From Terriglobia bacterium (GTDB lineage Bacteria; Acidobacteriota; Terriglobia; Terriglobales; Acidobacteriaceae), in assembly GCA_021324365.1 (NCBI GenBank), contig JAJPJE010000097.1, forward strand, positions 1-46,524: a DNA stretch of 46,524 nucleotides, read 5' to 3'. The translations under genes were made by a program, and so were the position numbers. This document shows positions 40,700-46,524 of the stretch, one piece after another. The notes under the pieces are model-generated. The model was not told the DNA's origin. It saw only the letters and a list, made by a program, of their open reading frames with translations, and ran no database searches. Each line of letters opens with the position of its first letter. The first letter of the stretch is position 1.

Positions 40700-42649
40700 C
40701 TAGACACTCGCCTCCAGGGTTTCCGATAGCTCGGACCACTCCGCGACCTTCGACTCCAATTCTTTCCGGTGCTTCGCCAGCTCCTCTGTCAGCCGCATTG
40801 TCTCTTCCGCGCTTACGAAATTCGCCAGTGCCGTCTCACACTCTGCGATGCTCTGCTCGCGGCGTTCGATCTCCTGCTCGAGGGTTTGACAGCGTTCTTG
40901 CATTTGCTTCAGCTTGATGGGATTGATCCGCTTCTTCGATTCCGAAGAAGAACTTTTTGCTTGAGCAGTAGTGGAACCGTCATTTCCGTTCTTGGGCGCC
41001 GCTTCAGTCAATTGCTGCTTCAGTGTTGCATCCAGCGCAGCCTGCCCGCCTTGTTTTCTCCACAAGTAATCTTCGTAATTGCCGGGATAGACATTCACGT
41101 TGCCATCGGCGATTTCGAAGATTCGCGTCGCGAGTTTATCGATGAAATAGCGGTCGTGAGAAACGAAAACGACGGTGCCGGAATAGTCTTGCAGTGCTTG
41201 CAGCAGCACGTCCTTCGCGCGCATGTCCAAATGATTCGTGGGTTCGTCGAGCAGGAGGAAGTTCGATGGCTGCATGAGCATCCGTGCGAGGGCGTAGCGA
41301 TTTCGCTCTCCGCCGGAGAGCACGCCGATCCGCTTGTAGGCGTCGTCACCGGAGAATAGAAAGCATCCCAACAGGCTGCGCAGCTCGGTTTGAGTGGCAT
41401 TCGGAGCCAATCGCTCCAGGTCATCGAGTACGCGGCTGTCCGGGTTCAATTCCTTGTACTGATCCTGCGCAAAGTAATCCGGCTCGGCATTATGTCCGAG
41501 GCGGTATTCGCCGGAAGTTGCTTTCTCCTCGCCGGCCTGCAGTTTGATTAATGTCGACTTCCCTGCACCATTCACGCCGACGAGCGCAATGCGATCTCCG
41601 CGCTCTATCATGAAATCCACATTCCGCAGCACCTGCTTCTCGCCGTAATTCTTCGAGAGGCTCTTCACCTCGGCGACAATGCGGCCGCTTGGTTTTGGCT
41701 GCGCGAACTTGAAGTGGATAGTCTTCTCTTGTTCCGGTATCTCAATACGCTCGATCTTCTCGAGTTCTTTAATGCGGCTCTGCACCTGCTTCGCTTTTGT
41801 CGCCTGGTACCGGAAGCGGTTGATGAAGGCTTCGATCTGGTCAATGCGCTCACGCTGCGTTTTATACGCGTTCTCGAGTTGTTCCTGTCGCTGCTGCTTC
41901 TGGGCGAGGTATTTGTCGTAGTTGCCAGGATAAAAGAAGACTTTCTTGTTCCAAATCTCGACGATCTTCTTCACAGTCACATCGAGAAAGTATCGATCGT
42001 GCGAGATCAAGACAAATGCGTATGGATAGTTGTTCAGGTAATCTTCGAGCCAGTTGCGCGTTTCGAGATCGAGGTGATTGGTAGGTTCGTCCAACAACAG
42101 CAGGTTCGGTCTTTGCAACAGTAGCTTTGCGAGCGAAATGCGCATCTGCCAGCCGCCGGAGAATTCCTCCGTCCGCCGCGACCAGTCATCCTTGCGAAAT
42201 CCGAGGCCGGTCAGAACAGCTCCGACCTGCGCCTCAATGGCATACCCATCACGAGTGCGAAACTCATTTTCGAGATGATGGAACCGGTCGGCGATATCCG
42301 CATATTCCTGCCCTGACGGATCGACTTCACCCATGCGATGCGTCAGCGATTCCATCTCCTGCTCCATGGAGCGGAGATCGTCAAATACAGTCATACACTC
42401 GGCGAAAACCGTACGTCCTGCGAGGCTGAGCCCGTCCTGGGGCAGATAGCCGGCGGTTACGCCACGGGTAATGCTCAGGCTTCCGTAGTCCAGAGTCTCC
42501 AGGCCGGAGAGAATCTTCATGAGTGTGGATTTGCCTGTGCCGTTCGCACCGACCAGGCCGACGCGGTCCTGGGGCGTGATCAGCCAGTTCAGGTCTTCGA
42601 ATAAGAGCTTGTGGCCAAAGCGCTTACCGGCTCCGGAAAGTTGAATCAT
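40700..42649 (-). CDS. ABC-F family ATPase
   Basis: A soluble 649-residue protein with two ABC domains and no membrane helices. The first has Walker A VGANGTGKST, signature FSGGWQMR and Walker B LLLLDEPTNHLD; the second has VGVNGAGKST, LSGGERNR and LLLDEPTNHLDM. The linker (about 240-310) is a long charged helical pair that would contact the ribosomal P/E-site tRNA. A C-terminal coiled coil follows residue 570, with a Ser/Lys-rich linker. ABC-F proteins act in translation or give ribosome-protection antibiotic resistance. Which subgroup (Uup, YdiF or other) is not clear. Confidence 0.93.
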   Translation of the reverse strand: MIQLSGAGKRFGHKLLFEDLNWLITPQDRVGLVGANGTGKSTLMKILSGLETLDYGSLSITRGVTAGYLPQDGLSLAGRTVFAECMTVFDDLRSMEQEMESLTHRMGEVDPSGQEYADIADRFHHLENEFRTRDGYAIEAQVGAVLTGLGFRKDDWSRRTEEFSGGWQMRISLAKLLLQRPNLLLLDEPTNHLDLETRNWLEDYLNNYPYAFVLISHDRYFLDVTVKKIVEIWNKKVFFYPGNYDKYLAQKQQRQEQLENAYKTQRERIDQIEAFINRFRYQATKAKQVQSRIKELEKIERIEIPEQEKTIHFKFAQPKPSGRIVAEVKSLSKNYGEKQVLRNVDFMIERGDRIALVGVNGAGKSTLIKLQAGEEKATSGEYRLGHNAEPDYFAQDQYKELNPDSRVLDDLERLAPNATQTELRSLLGCFLFSGDDAYKRIGVLSGGERNRYALARMLMQPSNFLLLDEPTNHLDMRAKDVLLQALQDYSGTVVFVSHDRYFIDKLATRIFEIADGNVNVYPGNYEDYLWRKQGGQAALDATLKQQLTEAAPKNGNDGSTTAQAKSSSSESKKRINPIKLKQMQERCQTLEQEIERREQSIAECETALANFVSAEETMRLTEELAKHRKELESKVAEWSELSETLEASV

Positions 42650-42748
42650 TCTCTTCTATTTTCGCATGCACGGTGTGACGGCAAGACGCCGGCGCTGCAG
42701 TTTGGGTATATTCACTGTTTCGCGAATGTTGAAGGAGTCATTTACTGC

Positions 42749-43882
42749 ATGCGCCAACGCTGCCTTGTGCTCTTTTCTGTACTCCTCTTTCTAGCCATCC
42801 CTCTTTTTGCCCAAACTCCGAACGCAACCGTAGTGCACCGGGCTGCTCACCTACGGCACGGGATCAATGCCAGCGAGTGGTTCGCCCAGGTGTACTCAGG
42901 CAAGTATGATCCATCGCACTTTGATACCTATATCACTCCCGATGACATCGCATTGATGCATCGGATGGGATTCGATCATGTCCGGCTCAGCATTAATCCG
43001 GCTCCGATGTTTCGCGATGGCGATGCGGATGCGATTCCGCGGAACTACCTGGCGTATGTCGATAAGGCGGTGAACAACATTCTGCAGAATGGTATGGCAG
43101 TGATCATCGATCTGCATCCGGAGAGCGATTTCAAGAAGCGCCTGACGAATGATCCGGGGTTCCCGGACGAATTCGCCGACTTCTGGCGCGCGCTTGCCAA
43201 ACATTACTCGAATCTCGATCCGGAGCGTGTTTTCTTTGAGGTGATGAATGAGCCCGAGGTCGAAGACACGTATAAGTGGCAAGGATTGCAGGCGAAGTTT
43301 GCGGCTGCGATCCGCCAAGGGGCACCTCAGCACACCATCATCGCCGCCGGAGCGAGATGGTCGTCGGTGGATGAGTTGCTGATGATGCAACCTCTCTCCG
43401 ACACGAATGTGATTTACAACTTTCACTTCTACACGCCCCATGACTTCACACATCAGGGCGCAACCTGGTCGGGGAATCTGCAACACTATCTGACACAGCA
43501 CGTGCCATATCCGTCGAAGCCGCAAGACGCTGCAGCGCTGGAACGGCAGGTGCCGAACGATCTCGATAAGCTCTGGATCAGCCGCTATGCCTACGATCAA
43601 TGGAATGCGGCACGCATTGAATCTGAAATTTCGCTTGCCGCGGCGTGGGCAAAGCAGCGCGGACTTGTTCTGACTTGCAATGAGTTTGGTGTTTTCCGCG
43701 CTTATGCCGATCCGAACGACCGTGCTGCCTGGCTGAAGGATGTGAGAACGACCCTGGAAAAATACGGGATCGGGTGGACGATGTGGGACTACCGGGGTGG
43801 CTTCGGGGTGGTCACCAAAGACAAGAACGGCAAGTCGATACCCGATCCGGTTACGTTGAGAGCGTTGGGACTAGAGAGTTAA
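42749..43882 (+). CDS. Secreted glycoside hydrolase, GH5
   Basis: ATG 42749 has AAGGAG 11 nt upstream. The 377-residue protein has a signal peptide (LVLFSVLLFLAIPLFAQ). The TIM-barrel catalytic acid is E168 in FFEVMNEPE and the nucleophile is E312 in LTCNEFGVF. GFDHVRLSINPAP and VIIDLHPESDF near residues 75-125 and NVIYNFHFYTPHDFTHQG are typical of GH5. It should cut a beta-1,4-glucan or mannan outside the cell. The gene is divergent from the ABC-F gene. A GH5 subfamily cannot be assigned by eye. Confidence 0.93.
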   Translation: MRQRCLVLFSVLLFLAIPLFAQTPNATVVHRAAHLRHGINASEWFAQVYSGKYDPSHFDTYITPDDIALMHRMGFDHVRLSINPAPMFRDGDADAIPRNYLAYVDKAVNNILQNGMAVIIDLHPESDFKKRLTNDPGFPDEFADFWRALAKHYSNLDPERVFFEVMNEPEVEDTYKWQGLQAKFAAAIRQGAPQHTIIAAGARWSSVDELLMMQPLSDTNVIYNFHFYTPHDFTHQGATWSGNLQHYLTQHVPYPSKPQDAAALERQVPNDLDKLWISRYAYDQWNAARIESEISLAAAWAKQRGLVLTCNEFGVFRAYADPNDRAAWLKDVRTTLEKYGIGWTMWDYRGGFGVVTKDKNGKSIPDPVTLRALGLES

Positions 43883-43896
43883 CGAAAGCTGCCAGC

Positions 43897-44286
43897 TCAC
43901 ATCGTTTGAGATTCAGGATCTGAAGTGGGCGCTTTGGTTGGAAGCTTGTCGGTAAAGCGATGGGCGGCGTCGGTGAGGTTGCGAGTTCGCGCCAGATTAT
44001 TGGCGGCTAGTTGCAAGCCGTAGAGGACCGGGCGCGCATTCTGGGCCTCGTAAGGATGCTTCATGATGAATTGGATGACCTTCATGAGAGCGATCTGGAT
44101 TGAAGCCAGATCTTCCAGAGGCGGCAGCTGTTCGGTGAGTTCGGAGAGTTTTGCTGGAGGGCTTTGCAGAGCCGCGGTGTGGAAGCGACAATAATTTGAA
44201 TTGCGACGCGCAGGCTGGGTGCAACGTTGGCCGCCGATGCGAATGTGCTGGCAAATGGCAGCACCAAATGCAGTGGTTTCACTCAT
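43897..44286 (-). CDS. Small Cys/His-motif protein of unknown function
   Basis: The start has GGAG 9 nt upstream. The 129-residue product has an N-terminal CQHIRIGGQRCTQPARRNSN then YCRFH (residues 12-36): spacing Cx2H...C...Cx2H, a possible zinc site. The rest is helical (SELTEQLPPLEDLASIQIALMKVIQFIMKHPYEAQNARPVLYGLQLAANNLARTR pattern, about 48-103) with a disordered end. Similar short Cys/His-rich proteins recur in acidobacterial genomes, so it is likely real. An imperfect GC palindrome lies 14 nt upstream of the start. The IS left end is about 50 bp from its start, so insertion may have cut its promoter. Confidence 0.65.
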   Translation of the reverse strand: MSETTAFGAAICQHIRIGGQRCTQPARRNSNYCRFHTAALQSPPAKLSELTEQLPPLEDLASIQIALMKVIQFIMKHPYEAQNARPVLYGLQLAANNLARTRNLTDAAHRFTDKLPTKAPTSDPESQTM

Positions 44287-44299
44287 TTCATTTCTCCGG

Positions 44300-44316
44300 G
44301 GAGGGGGTACCCCTCC
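44300..44316. repeat. Near-perfect GC palindrome before the Cys/His gene
   Basis: GGAGGGGGTACCCCTCC is a palindrome apart from one extra G, centred on GGTACC. It lies in the 5' leader of the gene at 43897-44286 and just outside the left end of the IS element. It could form a leader hairpin. Confidence 0.5.
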
Positions 44317-44338
44317 AAGAAAACAAAAGACTTAGTAA

Positions 44339-44354
44339 GGCAATAATATACTTG
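44339..44354 (+). repeat. Left terminal inverted repeat of the IS
   Basis: GGCAATAATATACTTG, identical to the reverse complement of 46509-46524. Its inner bases TTG form the start of the transposase promoter -35 box. Confidence 0.9.
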
Positions 44355-44380
44355 ACAAATCAACGCAAGTAGCTGATAAT
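44352..44380 (+). promoter_or_regulatory. Transposase promoter giving a leaderless transcript
   Basis: TTGACA (44352-44357) is separated by 17 bp from GATAAT (44375-44380). Transcription would start 6-8 bp later, at about 44387, where the ATG lies at 44388. No SD exists. The -35 box overlaps the inner end of the terminal repeat. Confidence 0.75.
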
Positions 44381-44387
44381 CCCTTCT

Positions 44388-45398
44388 ATGCCGCGTAAGA
44401 CTAACAAACAGATGGGCTTGAAAGAGGCTATCGAGCACTTCTCCGACCCTGAGAGCGTTCTGGCGTACATGACGCGCCTGCGCTGGCCTGATGGCGTGGT
44501 GAAATGTCCCACATGTGGCCGCGAGGGTGCCTCGTTTCTGAAGAATCAGAACAAGTGGCAGTGCAAGAGCGCACACGCGAAGCGTCAGTTTTCTGCGAAG
44601 GTCGGGACCATCTTTGAGGATTCTCCGATCCCGATGGATAAATGGCTTGTTGCAGTGTGGATGCTTGCGAACTGCAAAAACGGTGTTAGCTCTTACGAGC
44701 TGGCGCGTACTCTCGGTATCACTCAGAAGTCGGCATGGTTCATGCTGCATCGGATTCGCACTGCGATGAAGCATGGCACCTTCCAGAAGCTTGGCAGCAC
44801 TGGCGGGGCCGTCGAGTCCGATGAGACCTTCGTTGGCGCGAATGTAATGAAGATGCACAAATCGCGTCGTGCAAAGATGCAAGCGATTGCGAGTAACACT
44901 TACGGCATGAGTCGCCATGCAATCGGCAAAACAATTGTGATGGGAATGCTTGACCGTGATCTTCGCGAGGTTCGGGCCACGGTTATCCCCGACGTTAAGC
45001 GTGCGACGCTGCAAGAGCAGATTCTGAATAACGTTGCTGGCGGAGCGACACTCATCACCGATGACGCCACTGGATACCGCTATGCTCTTGCGGAGGGATT
45101 CGCACACGAGATCATCAACCACGCTCAAGAGTACGTTCGCGGCCAAGTCCACACGCAAGGCATCGAGAACTTCTGGTCGCTGTTGAAGCGTGGCCTTCGC
45201 GGAACCTACGTTGCTGTCGAGCCTTTCCATCTTGGTCGTTACGTTGATGAGCAAGTGTTCCGCTACAACAATCGCGGAAGTAAAGAGTTTCCGGTTAGCG
45301 ACTTCGCCCGTTTCACTCGCCTGATGGAGCAGATCGACGGGAAACGCATTACCTATGCCGAGGTCACAGGCAAGGTCGGCGAAGAAGCGCAAGCTTAA
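44388..45398 (+). CDS. IS1595-family transposase
   Basis: The 336-residue protein has the IS1595 N-terminal zinc ribbon (CPTCGREG at about 42-49, then WQCKSAHAKRQFS; the final second Cys pair is incomplete), a helical targeting region (SSYELARTLGITQKSAWFMLHRIRTAM) and an RNase-H-like DDE domain with AVESDETFVG (Asp), LITDDATGY (Asp) and a Glu in TQGIENFWSLLKRGLRGTY. It cuts and pastes the element through the terminal repeats. Translation starts without an SD, from a leaderless mRNA. The frame is intact. It converges with two cargo genes and is followed by a strong hairpin. Confidence 0.93.
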   Translation: MPRKTNKQMGLKEAIEHFSDPESVLAYMTRLRWPDGVVKCPTCGREGASFLKNQNKWQCKSAHAKRQFSAKVGTIFEDSPIPMDKWLVAVWMLANCKNGVSSYELARTLGITQKSAWFMLHRIRTAMKHGTFQKLGSTGGAVESDETFVGANVMKMHKSRRAKMQAIASNTYGMSRHAIGKTIVMGMLDRDLREVRATVIPDVKRATLQEQILNNVAGGATLITDDATGYRYALAEGFAHEIINHAQEYVRGQVHTQGIENFWSLLKRGLRGTYVAVEPFHLGRYVDEQVFRYNNRGSKEFPVSDFARFTRLMEQIDGKRITYAEVTGKVGEEAQA

Positions 45399-45574
45399 TC
45401 CTGCTCGCGGGATTCGCGGACCAAAGCGGAAGGTTTCTTCTTAGCCTTCCGTTTTTGCTTTTCCTCTTTCTCTTGATCTAGTGCAGCTTTCACCGCACTG
45501 TGCGGAACCTGGATAAGCGCGTGCATGAAGCCATCAAACTTCTTGAACTCAGAATCGGGTGTTCGTTTGCTCAC
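45395..45574 (-). CDS. 59-residue basic cargo protein
   Basis: This frame starts with GTG at 45572-45574, overlapping the DUF3800 stop as GTGA, and ends in TAA at 45395-45397, which overlaps the transposase stop on the other strand. The product begins MSKRTPDSEFKKFDGF and contains LIQVPHSAVKAALDQE, then a Lys/Glu-rich end (EEKQKRKAKKKPS). VPHS or VPxS motifs of this kind occur in small antitoxin-like proteins. It is too short for length-filtered gene finding. The overlap and coding continuity make it credible. An antitoxin or partner role for DUF3800 is inference. Confidence 0.65.
   Translation of the reverse strand: MSKRTPDSEFKKFDGFMHALIQVPHSAVKAALDQEKEEKQKRKAKKKPSALVRESREQD
45427..45462 (+). 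terminator. Terminator of the transposase transcript
   Basis: CGGAAGG (45427-45433) pairs with CCTTCCG (45445-45451) around an 11-nt loop and is followed by TTTTTGCTTTT. It lies 29 bp after the transposase stop, antisense to the small cargo gene. Confidence 0.85.
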
Positions 45575-46362
45575 AATTTCCCATCCTCTCGCAGTATTCG
45601 GAGAAACTCTAGAATGCCATGCTCGTCAAAATATCGGCCATGATGTTGCTGCCAACTGAGAAACCTATTCATAGCTGGACGCAAGGTGGCGTTCTTTTTG
45701 GCTCTTTTATTCTCCATGTAGCGCCACGTCTCATACGCTAAGTGATCGGCAGCTTGAAGAGCTTTAAATTTCTCCTTACAGTCAAATGCGGGCGTACCGA
45801 GTCGGCGACGTCGTTCTTTCGGCCATTCTGGATCTTTCTTTATGTCGTTGTACATACTGAGCGCATGGACGGACCACTGCGGATGATCTTCAAAGACAAA
45901 GCCAATCGACTCATTTGATTCACCAATGAAGGCATCCGCCATCAATACTGTCTCCACGAGAACAGCGTTAAAGGCGAACATATAAGGATTAGCCGGAACA
46001 ACTGCGGCGACAGCGGGATCGTTGACAACCAATCGCCTGAATGCATCTAGTTCAACACCTACACCAACCCCAAGCATTCCCGAGTTTACGACGATGTTGA
46101 GTGCGGTTGTTTTTAGATCGTCCCTTTCTCTTTGCTTGAGACGTCGGAATCGCTTGGAACCTCTCCCCTCCACGTCCTCGGCGTGGAAAAATTCGAGTTT
46201 GGGTGTGATCGCTGGCTTTTCAAGCATCGCACTCCACTTCTTCTCAAAGCCCCCATCCCACACATCCGCAGGCGCGATATATCCACACAATACAAATACA
46301 TTCGCGGCATTAGGACCGCCCCAATGCGTTCCACTCTCATCAAAGTAAGCCTTAAGCGCCAC
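45571..46362 (-). CDS. DUF3800-domain cargo protein
   Basis: I prefer GTG 46362 because GAGG lies 6 nt upstream and DUF3800 proteins begin with the YFDESG strand; ATGs at 46407 and 46500 are in frame, the latter almost in the terminal repeat. The 263-residue product starts VALKAYFDESGTHWGG, followed by FVLCGYIAPADVW, KLEFFHAEDVEG (His-Asp-Glu region), and later IGFVFEDHPQW and FKALQAADHLAYETWRYMEN. The acidic residues recall an RNase-H-like nuclease fold, but no function is established. It is IS cargo and overlaps the 59-residue gene. Confidence 0.85.
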   Translation of the reverse strand: MALKAYFDESGTHWGGPNAANVFVLCGYIAPADVWDGGFEKKWSAMLEKPAITPKLEFFHAEDVEGRGSKRFRRLKQRERDDLKTTALNIVVNSGMLGVGVGVELDAFRRLVVNDPAVAAVVPANPYMFAFNAVLVETVLMADAFIGESNESIGFVFEDHPQWSVHALSMYNDIKKDPEWPKERRRRLGTPAFDCKEKFKALQAADHLAYETWRYMENKRAKKNATLRPAMNRFLSWQQHHGRYFDEHGILEFLRILREDGKL

Positions 46363-46448
46363 TATGACCCTCGTTTTTGCCGATGGCGGATGTAAAAGCG
46401 ACGCCATAGACCTAACACTTGTATGCACCTTGAACCAAAGAACTTTCC

Positions 46449-46465
46449 CCACGGCCTTTCCGTGG
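46449..46465. other. Hairpin in the DUF3800 5' leader
   Basis: CCACGG and CCGTGG pair around a 5-nt loop, about 45 bp inside the right end. It could block outside transcription from entering the element or fold in the DUF3800 leader RNA. Confidence 0.4.
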
Positions 46466-46508
46466 TGGCTAAGGGCAATTACATACTGTCGCAATCGCAT
46501 TGATTACG

Positions 46509-46524
46509 CAAGTATATTATTGCC
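46509..46524 (-). repeat. Right terminal inverted repeat of the IS
   Basis: CAAGTATATTATTGCC, the exact reverse complement of 44339-44354. The window stops on its outermost base. Confidence 0.9.

Follow-up and report, generated by a model that had tools for sequence, protein, structure and literature searches.

The right-hand part of the window (the whole stretch of DNA analysed, 46,524 bp) held a complete IS1595-family element of 2186 bp (44339-46524). On balance, this was probably a minimal IS1595 cargo transposon, in which a fixed core accompanies a swappable slot, the slot carries a nuclease gene and a small protein serves the transposase. Comparison with relatives showed a fixed part made up of the left end, the genes for the transposase and for a small basic protein, and a right end of about 25 bp. 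The one or more genes in the slot are exchanged as a whole between relatives, and the core can still be recognised.

The element in the window

The following features were located in the element and at its borders:

44331..44338, CTTAGTAA, target duplication of 8 bp, copy at the left end; contig C37 from this genome (G000) holds the copy at the right end
44339..44366, plus strand, left inverted repeat, 16 of 16 bases perfect, 28 nt at 86%
44352..44380, plus strand, promoter-like site TTGACA-17-GATAAT, its -35 box starting inside the left repeat
44388..45398, plus strand, IS1595-family transposase, 336 aa (Pfam, NCBIfam)
45395..45574, minus strand, small basic protein of 59 aa with two predicted helices, family core gene (ORF, comparison)
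45423..45455, plus strand, weak terminator-like hairpin 3′ of the transposase, within the small gene
45571..46362, minus strand, cargo gene, DUF3800-like with a predicted RNase HII-type fold; likely GTG start, frame open to 46500
46497..46524, minus strand, right inverted repeat, also the last bases of the contig

As an earlier note on this DNA had claimed, perfect 16-bp repeats bound an element of exactly 2186 bp. The two copies of GGCAATAATATACTTG (44339-44354, plus strand; 46509-46524, minus strand) matched with 0 mismatches, and the inverted arms could be extended to 28 nt at 86% identity. The chance expectation for the 16-bp end was 0.13 matches with at most three mismatches. An end-like site on contig C96 (1 mismatch) lay away from any matching element and was taken as chance; a backward control pattern for the ends likewise gave one match in the genome.

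The window stops at the right end of the element because the contig stops there, its final base being also that of the element. Another contig of this genome, C37, carried in reverse the last 107 bp of the element followed by CTTAGTAA, the same eight bases as at 44331-44338, which gives a perfect 8-bp target duplication. On contig C108 the same last 107 bp were followed by a different flank, GAGCTAAG. With two right flanks there are therefore at least two insertions in this genome; a second left end was looked for in the assembly and was not found. Inverted ends starting with GG and an 8-bp target duplication are traits of the IS1595 family, and the window element had both. By analogy with the family, the transposase would act on both ends and insert the unit with the duplication observed here.

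The transposase matched the Pfam IS1595 DDE domain (ISXO2-like, PF12762; E 2.9e-35, 122 bits, cut-off 27), the N-terminal zinc ribbon (PF12760; E 2.3e-9, 37.5 bits, cut-off 25.4) and the NCBIfam IS1595 model (NF033547; E 7.8e-52, 176 bits, cut-off 75). The DDE domain and zinc ribbon place it in the IS1595 family, and its earlier identification held above both Pfam and NCBIfam cut-offs. The suggestion that the IS serves as a vehicle was also borne out, as a passenger gene lies inside the ends and relatives with similar ends also carry DUF3800. Having a DUF3800-like gene unrelated to transposition between its ends, the element is a tIS. The transposase and two minus-strand genes described earlier were all present, but the small gene did not behave as a passenger, since it tracks the transposase and is present without DUF3800.

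To the left of the element lay a gene of the GH5 cellulase family (42611-43882, plus strand) and a 129-aa ORF (43897-44286, minus strand) that matched DUF5763 below threshold. In one relative (L074), an ORF close to the transposase had, by eye, a similar cysteine-histidine start to that of the 129-aa ORF.

Related elements

Among 150 genomes, the window's own included, the transposase had matches in 90 and the DUF3800-like protein in 11. The Pfam model of DUF3800 (PF12686) gave 46 matches in 37 of the 150 genomes, at least 12 of them within 3 kb of an IS1595 transposase among the transposases listed. Loci were taken from 31 fetched regions and, by the transposase profile, from the best 80 in named genomes and the best 80 on viral contigs. 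The 80 named-genome loci came from Acidobacteriota (69), Deltaproteobacteria (3) and Dehalococcoidia (2), with one each from Chloroflexi, Planctomycetota, Nevskia, Pseudanabaena, Acidimicrobiia and Actinobacteria.

A transposase ORF was recovered in 187 of the 192 loci (window included). After dropping 60 loci without an acceptable end pair, 5 doubtful cases and 4 duplicates, 118 unique elements delimited by inverted ends remained, the window element among them. The earlier note had proposed looking for 8-bp target duplications; found through contig C37 in the window element, whose duplication was entered into the count by hand, they were perfect in 97 of the 118. The 101 elements with a perfect duplication, duplicates still counted, were 1601-4429 bp long (median 2520). 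Five of the 118 (L053, L057, L059, L062, L063) had been fetched because they carry DUF3800, and the 96 elements picked by transposase alone were therefore counted separately. Other copies with similar ends and cargo, which the note had also proposed to search for, do exist: DUF3800 was present in 27 of these 96.

The small gene was found in 110 of the 118 delimited elements and another ORF of at least 100 aa in 114. In 71 elements the small gene adjoined the 3′ end of the transposase gene and was convergent with it; in 15 it adjoined that end in the same orientation, in 24 it stood apart, and in 8 it was not found. The exact 4-nt stop-stop overlap seen in the window recurred in 64 of 113 convergent downstream cases (all loci, before delimiting). 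Many family elements lay on contigs filed as viral (L164-L243), and among viral loci with both genes, 44 of 73 had the small gene and the transposase gene on one strand, versus 9 of 74 named-genome loci. Some of the cargo in the viral set, with head-protease-like NCBIfam matches, may be prophage genes between mispaired ends.

Promoter-like sites scoring at least 9 of 12 were present at the left end of 102 of the 118 elements (shuffled sequences, 29%) and at the right end of 35 (shuffled sequences, 9%); the window element had none at its right end. Terminator-like hairpins in the region numbered 5, against 2.8 expected. One relative (L066) had a 63-aa lysine-rich ORF before the transposase, inside the left end (element positions 28-219).

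The DUF3800-like protein

From its first start, the cargo ORF of the window element runs from 45571 to 46500 on the minus strand (309 aa). A GTG at 46362, with GAGG upstream, is a likelier start and gives 263 residues. The protein scored 18.7 bits against PF12686 (E 0.003), below the cut-off of 21, and is therefore called DUF3800-like here. Its earlier assignment to DUF3800 thus falls short by sequence score and agrees with the predicted RNase H-type fold. A model built with 23 cargo relatives (pLDDT 91, pTM 0.90) had RNase HII and H2 as its best solved-structure matches (Foldseek E 4e-5; Z 11.8, aligned over 171 and 181 residues); RNase HI scored near Z 7. The best viral structural match was a phage protein named DUF3800 (TM 0.68/0.74).

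Conserved acidic residues accompanied the predicted fold, as expected of DUF3800. D8 and D206 were kept in all 24 aligned DUF3800 cargo proteins, an acidic residue occurred at position 9 in 20 and at position 158 in 22 (E9 and E158 in the window), and H60 and Q203 were each kept in 22. With its RNase HII-type fold and the acidic set D8, E9, E158 and D206, the cargo product is most likely a metal-dependent nuclease with RNA or RNA-DNA as its substrate, as far as the model and alignment indicate. Such a nuclease would most likely help the element to persist, by protecting the cell against other invaders or by making loss of the element costly, at roughly even odds.

No match to the DUF3800-like protein was found in plasmids, a sequence-profile search of solved structures returned nothing useful for it or for the small protein, and a pattern search of genome contigs matched 17 stretches, none of which encodes a relative. 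The three window proteins had no PADLOC match to known anti-phage defence up to E 1. A search for DUF3800-type RNA families found none in the window element or in 20 of the 31 fetched relatives; 43800-46524 gave only two RNA matches up to E 10, each well short of its gathering score. The sole RNA match above a gathering score in those 20 was an unrelated sRNA outside the L053 element and was set aside.

The small basic protein gene

The stop of the small gene overlaps that of the transposase gene by 4 nt. AlphaFold placed helices at residues 6-21 and 25-46 of its product with moderate confidence (pLDDT 75, pTM 0.36). Across 18 pairs of small genes (970 codons), codon positions 1, 2 and 3 differed 353, 310 and 513 times. 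Since third positions vary most, the gene is coding and translated, and the idea that it is a mere by-product of a terminator was ruled out on the same ground. The window protein had no match in NCBIfam up to E 1, in Pfam, or in PHROG at E 0.1. Among 18 relatives no Pfam or PHROG match was common to more than two, the best being one Pfam match in a single member (E 0.00075).

A profile of the small gene, searched in 396 genomes of the phylum, gave 36 matches in 22 genomes, the window's included. Twenty of these, picked without regard to the transposase, were fetched with their surroundings; an IS1595 transposase was on the stretch in 14 and absent in 6. Of the other 16, all 15 checked adjoined transposases among the matches listed or the window's own. 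Five small-gene matches (L250, L251, L257, L258, L263) had no IS1595 transposase on the fetched stretch and could be remnants or host copies; L258 starts close to a contig end, with only one flank covered. The small domain was also found fused to the C-terminus of DUF3800 (L076, identical to L114, 2015-3088; L085, 6011-7231) and of another cargo-type protein (L203, 4884-5957). L085 and L203 are outside the set of delimited elements.

The earlier note had read the DUF3800 gene and the 59-residue gene as a two-gene addiction or defence module, and they could form a toxin-antitoxin pair riding on the IS, with DUF3800 as a toxic nuclease and the co-translated small protein as its antitoxin. The two genes lie on one strand and overlap by 4 nt, the cargo protein has a predicted RNase H-type fold, two loci encode a fusion of the small domain with DUF3800, and all 27 unselected elements with DUF3800 have the small gene. 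However, so do 65 of the 69 unselected elements without DUF3800 (Fisher p 0.57), and in all 118 elements the counts were 38 of 42 with and 72 of 76 without (p 0.45). Distances between small proteins were correlated with those between transposases in the 38 DUF3800 elements (r 0.30, p 0.0005), in the 27 non-viral DUF3800 elements (r 0.40) and in all 110 elements with the gene (r 0.27, p 0.001), and more weakly in the 27 unselected DUF3800 elements (r 0.20, p 0.010). DUF3800 distances showed no significant correlation with small protein or transposase distances, whichever set was taken (r between -0.05 and 0.09, p at least 0.13). A dedicated module was thus not upheld, because the small gene tracks the transposase and is common where DUF3800 is lacking; a type II toxin-antitoxin system has a small partner specific to the toxin gene, which this one was not.

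Loci in which DUF3800 stands apart from close relatives of this transposase also spoke against a toxin-antitoxin pair. None of the five fetched DUF3800 loci without an IS1595 transposase had a small-gene match, nor did four elements in which DUF3800 accompanies a distant IS1595 transposase (L053, L059, L062, L063); a small gene that had diverged strongly may have escaped the search. The transposases of these four were only 32-35% identical to that of the window and formed no single tight group. Of the four, L063 alone had an 8-bp duplication. Two of them had broken frames, L063 in its transposase (two ORFs) and L062 in DUF3800. In L059 a 190-aa ORF, with membrane helices by eye, follows DUF3800. 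Further, 15 of the 110 small genes lie next to the transposase gene and are read in the same direction as it. Taken together, a toxin-antitoxin pair appears improbable.

The small protein might instead be a general partner of any cargo (for example a chaperone, tether or silencer). By a loose criterion, a same-strand cargo gene ends close to the start of the small gene in 50 of 110 elements, and this adjacency, with the fusions to cargo proteins at three loci, fits a link to cargo. A general cargo partner is at odds with the 15 elements in which the small gene follows the transposase on its strand, and with the way the small protein tracks transposase divergence, and we consider it rather doubtful. 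Within the cargo transposon that we favour, the small gene seems, by sequence comparison, to belong to the element core and not to be a dedicated DUF3800 partner. Because it is conserved with the transposase, its product would most likely serve the transposase, as a regulator or a DNA-binding helper. Against this, the correlation with the transposase is modest, and the small gene is absent from 4 of the 69 unselected elements without DUF3800.

The cargo slot

Ten pairs of elements with transposases 72-88% alike were compared at the DNA level. In eight of them homology took in the left end, the transposase and all or part of the small gene, and was lost in the cargo. For seven of these eight it was regained only over the final 21-31 bp; L144/L131 had no reported match at the right end. 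Among the seven pairs with transposases at least 79% alike, five (L157/L139, L144/L131, L117/L102, L105/L101, L207/L205) had no cargo similarity by blastp and two had similar cargo (L102/L080 at 50%, L226/L223 at 32%). As these two of the ten pairs share cargo, exchange is not universal. Cargo genes can precede or follow the small gene (L139, L105, L205).

DUF3800, by a profile built for this analysis, made up 27 of 124 unselected cargo proteins versus at most 1 of 148 flanking ORFs (p 2e-9). At E 0.01, the 148 cargo proteins with 140 aa or more matched 32 Pfam families, against 198 for an equal number of flanking ORFs of matched length, all taken from the genome and viral loci. The cargo families (25 listed) included DUF3800 (32 proteins), SocA/Panacea (5), RelA/SpoT (3), AIPR, PIN and Schlafen AlbA_2 (2 each), and RhuM, C5 methylase, D12 methylase and PemK as singles. 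The flank families (25 listed) were mainly transporters, dehydrogenases, hydrolases and AAA proteins, with five IS1595 transposases. Three related cargo proteins in one cluster (L067, 770-2956; L095; L118) were of RelA/SpoT type by eye, and a second ORF of L067 was SocA/Panacea-like by eye.

PADLOC matches of cargo to single families included pAgo, AbiU, PDC-S33, MTase_II, REase_II and SspD, and two of ten cargo proteins scanned singly were matched (L118 PDC-S33, L146 AbiU). PADLOC enrichment of cargo was not found (141 families versus 197 in the 148 length-matched flanking ORFs), a comparison that is blunt because families, not members, were counted. From sequence matches of this kind, the cargo appears to be a restricted set with toxin-like and defence-like genes, without demonstrated enrichment for known defence.

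The cargo could also be a neutral hitchhiker, its genes picked up at random and DUF3800 having no role in persistence. Its great diversity (96 singletons among 179 proteins) would agree with this, as would the PADLOC result. Random pick-up does not sit well with the narrow range of Pfam families relative to the flanks, with the share of DUF3800 alone (32 of 148 cargo proteins) or with the invariance of D8 and D206, and neutral hitchhiking is in our view unlikely.

Relation to known systems

Transporter IS (tIS) elements of the IS1595 family were reportedly described by Siguier in 2009, tISCpe8 and MTnSag1/tISSag10 being examples. IS1595 elements with passenger genes are thus already known, as the available text of two accounts states (PMC3129680, PMC5704250). 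The window family resembles the tIS described there, among them a lincomycin-resistance element and a mobilizable element, in its IS1595-type transposase, inverted ends and passengers unrelated to transposition. It differs in that the same text mentions neither a conserved small gene nor wholesale cargo exchange (PMC3129680, PMC5704250). A conserved small gene in IS1595 elements appears to be undescribed: no description was found in the available literature on IS1595 passenger and accessory genes, many subscription papers being outside its scope. Over 100 passenger-bearing IS1595 elements have now been delimited by their ends. Since core and cargo were shown to evolve apart, both the small protein family, which travels with the transposase and lacks a match in Pfam, NCBIfam or PHROG, and the cargo list become testable. 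Many genes on that list are unannotated, and it may include unknown immune or addiction genes.

Tn7-like transposons use different, larger machinery; unlike them, the window family has a single transposase gene and a single small gene within elements of 1.6-4.4 kb. The two are alike in that a transposition core is decoupled from highly diverse cargo, defence genes included, according to the available text on the Tn7-like case (Benler 2021, PMC8649781). It is possible, in a broader and more tentative reading, that the elements form a widespread, mostly Acidobacteriota family whose core of IS1595 transposase and two-helix protein is designed for picking up and swapping small immune or addiction genes, DUF3800 nucleases being the commonest cargo. 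The small protein would then be a new transposition or cargo-capture factor.

The available text of PMC10910872 and PMC12669027 describes DUF3800 from some Cas12a2 (V-A2) and VI-F loci as a nuclease with an RNase H fold, and the fold predicted for the window protein is of the same RNase H type. Those DUF3800 proteins are part of CRISPR loci and, in the available part of PMC10910872, occur with TPR domains; the DUF3800-like protein of the window is carried by itself on an IS. No paper naming both IS1595 and DUF3800 was found in the literature covered, many subscription papers being outside its scope. DUF3800, a family of unknown function, thereby gains a recurrent genetic setting outside CRISPR loci.
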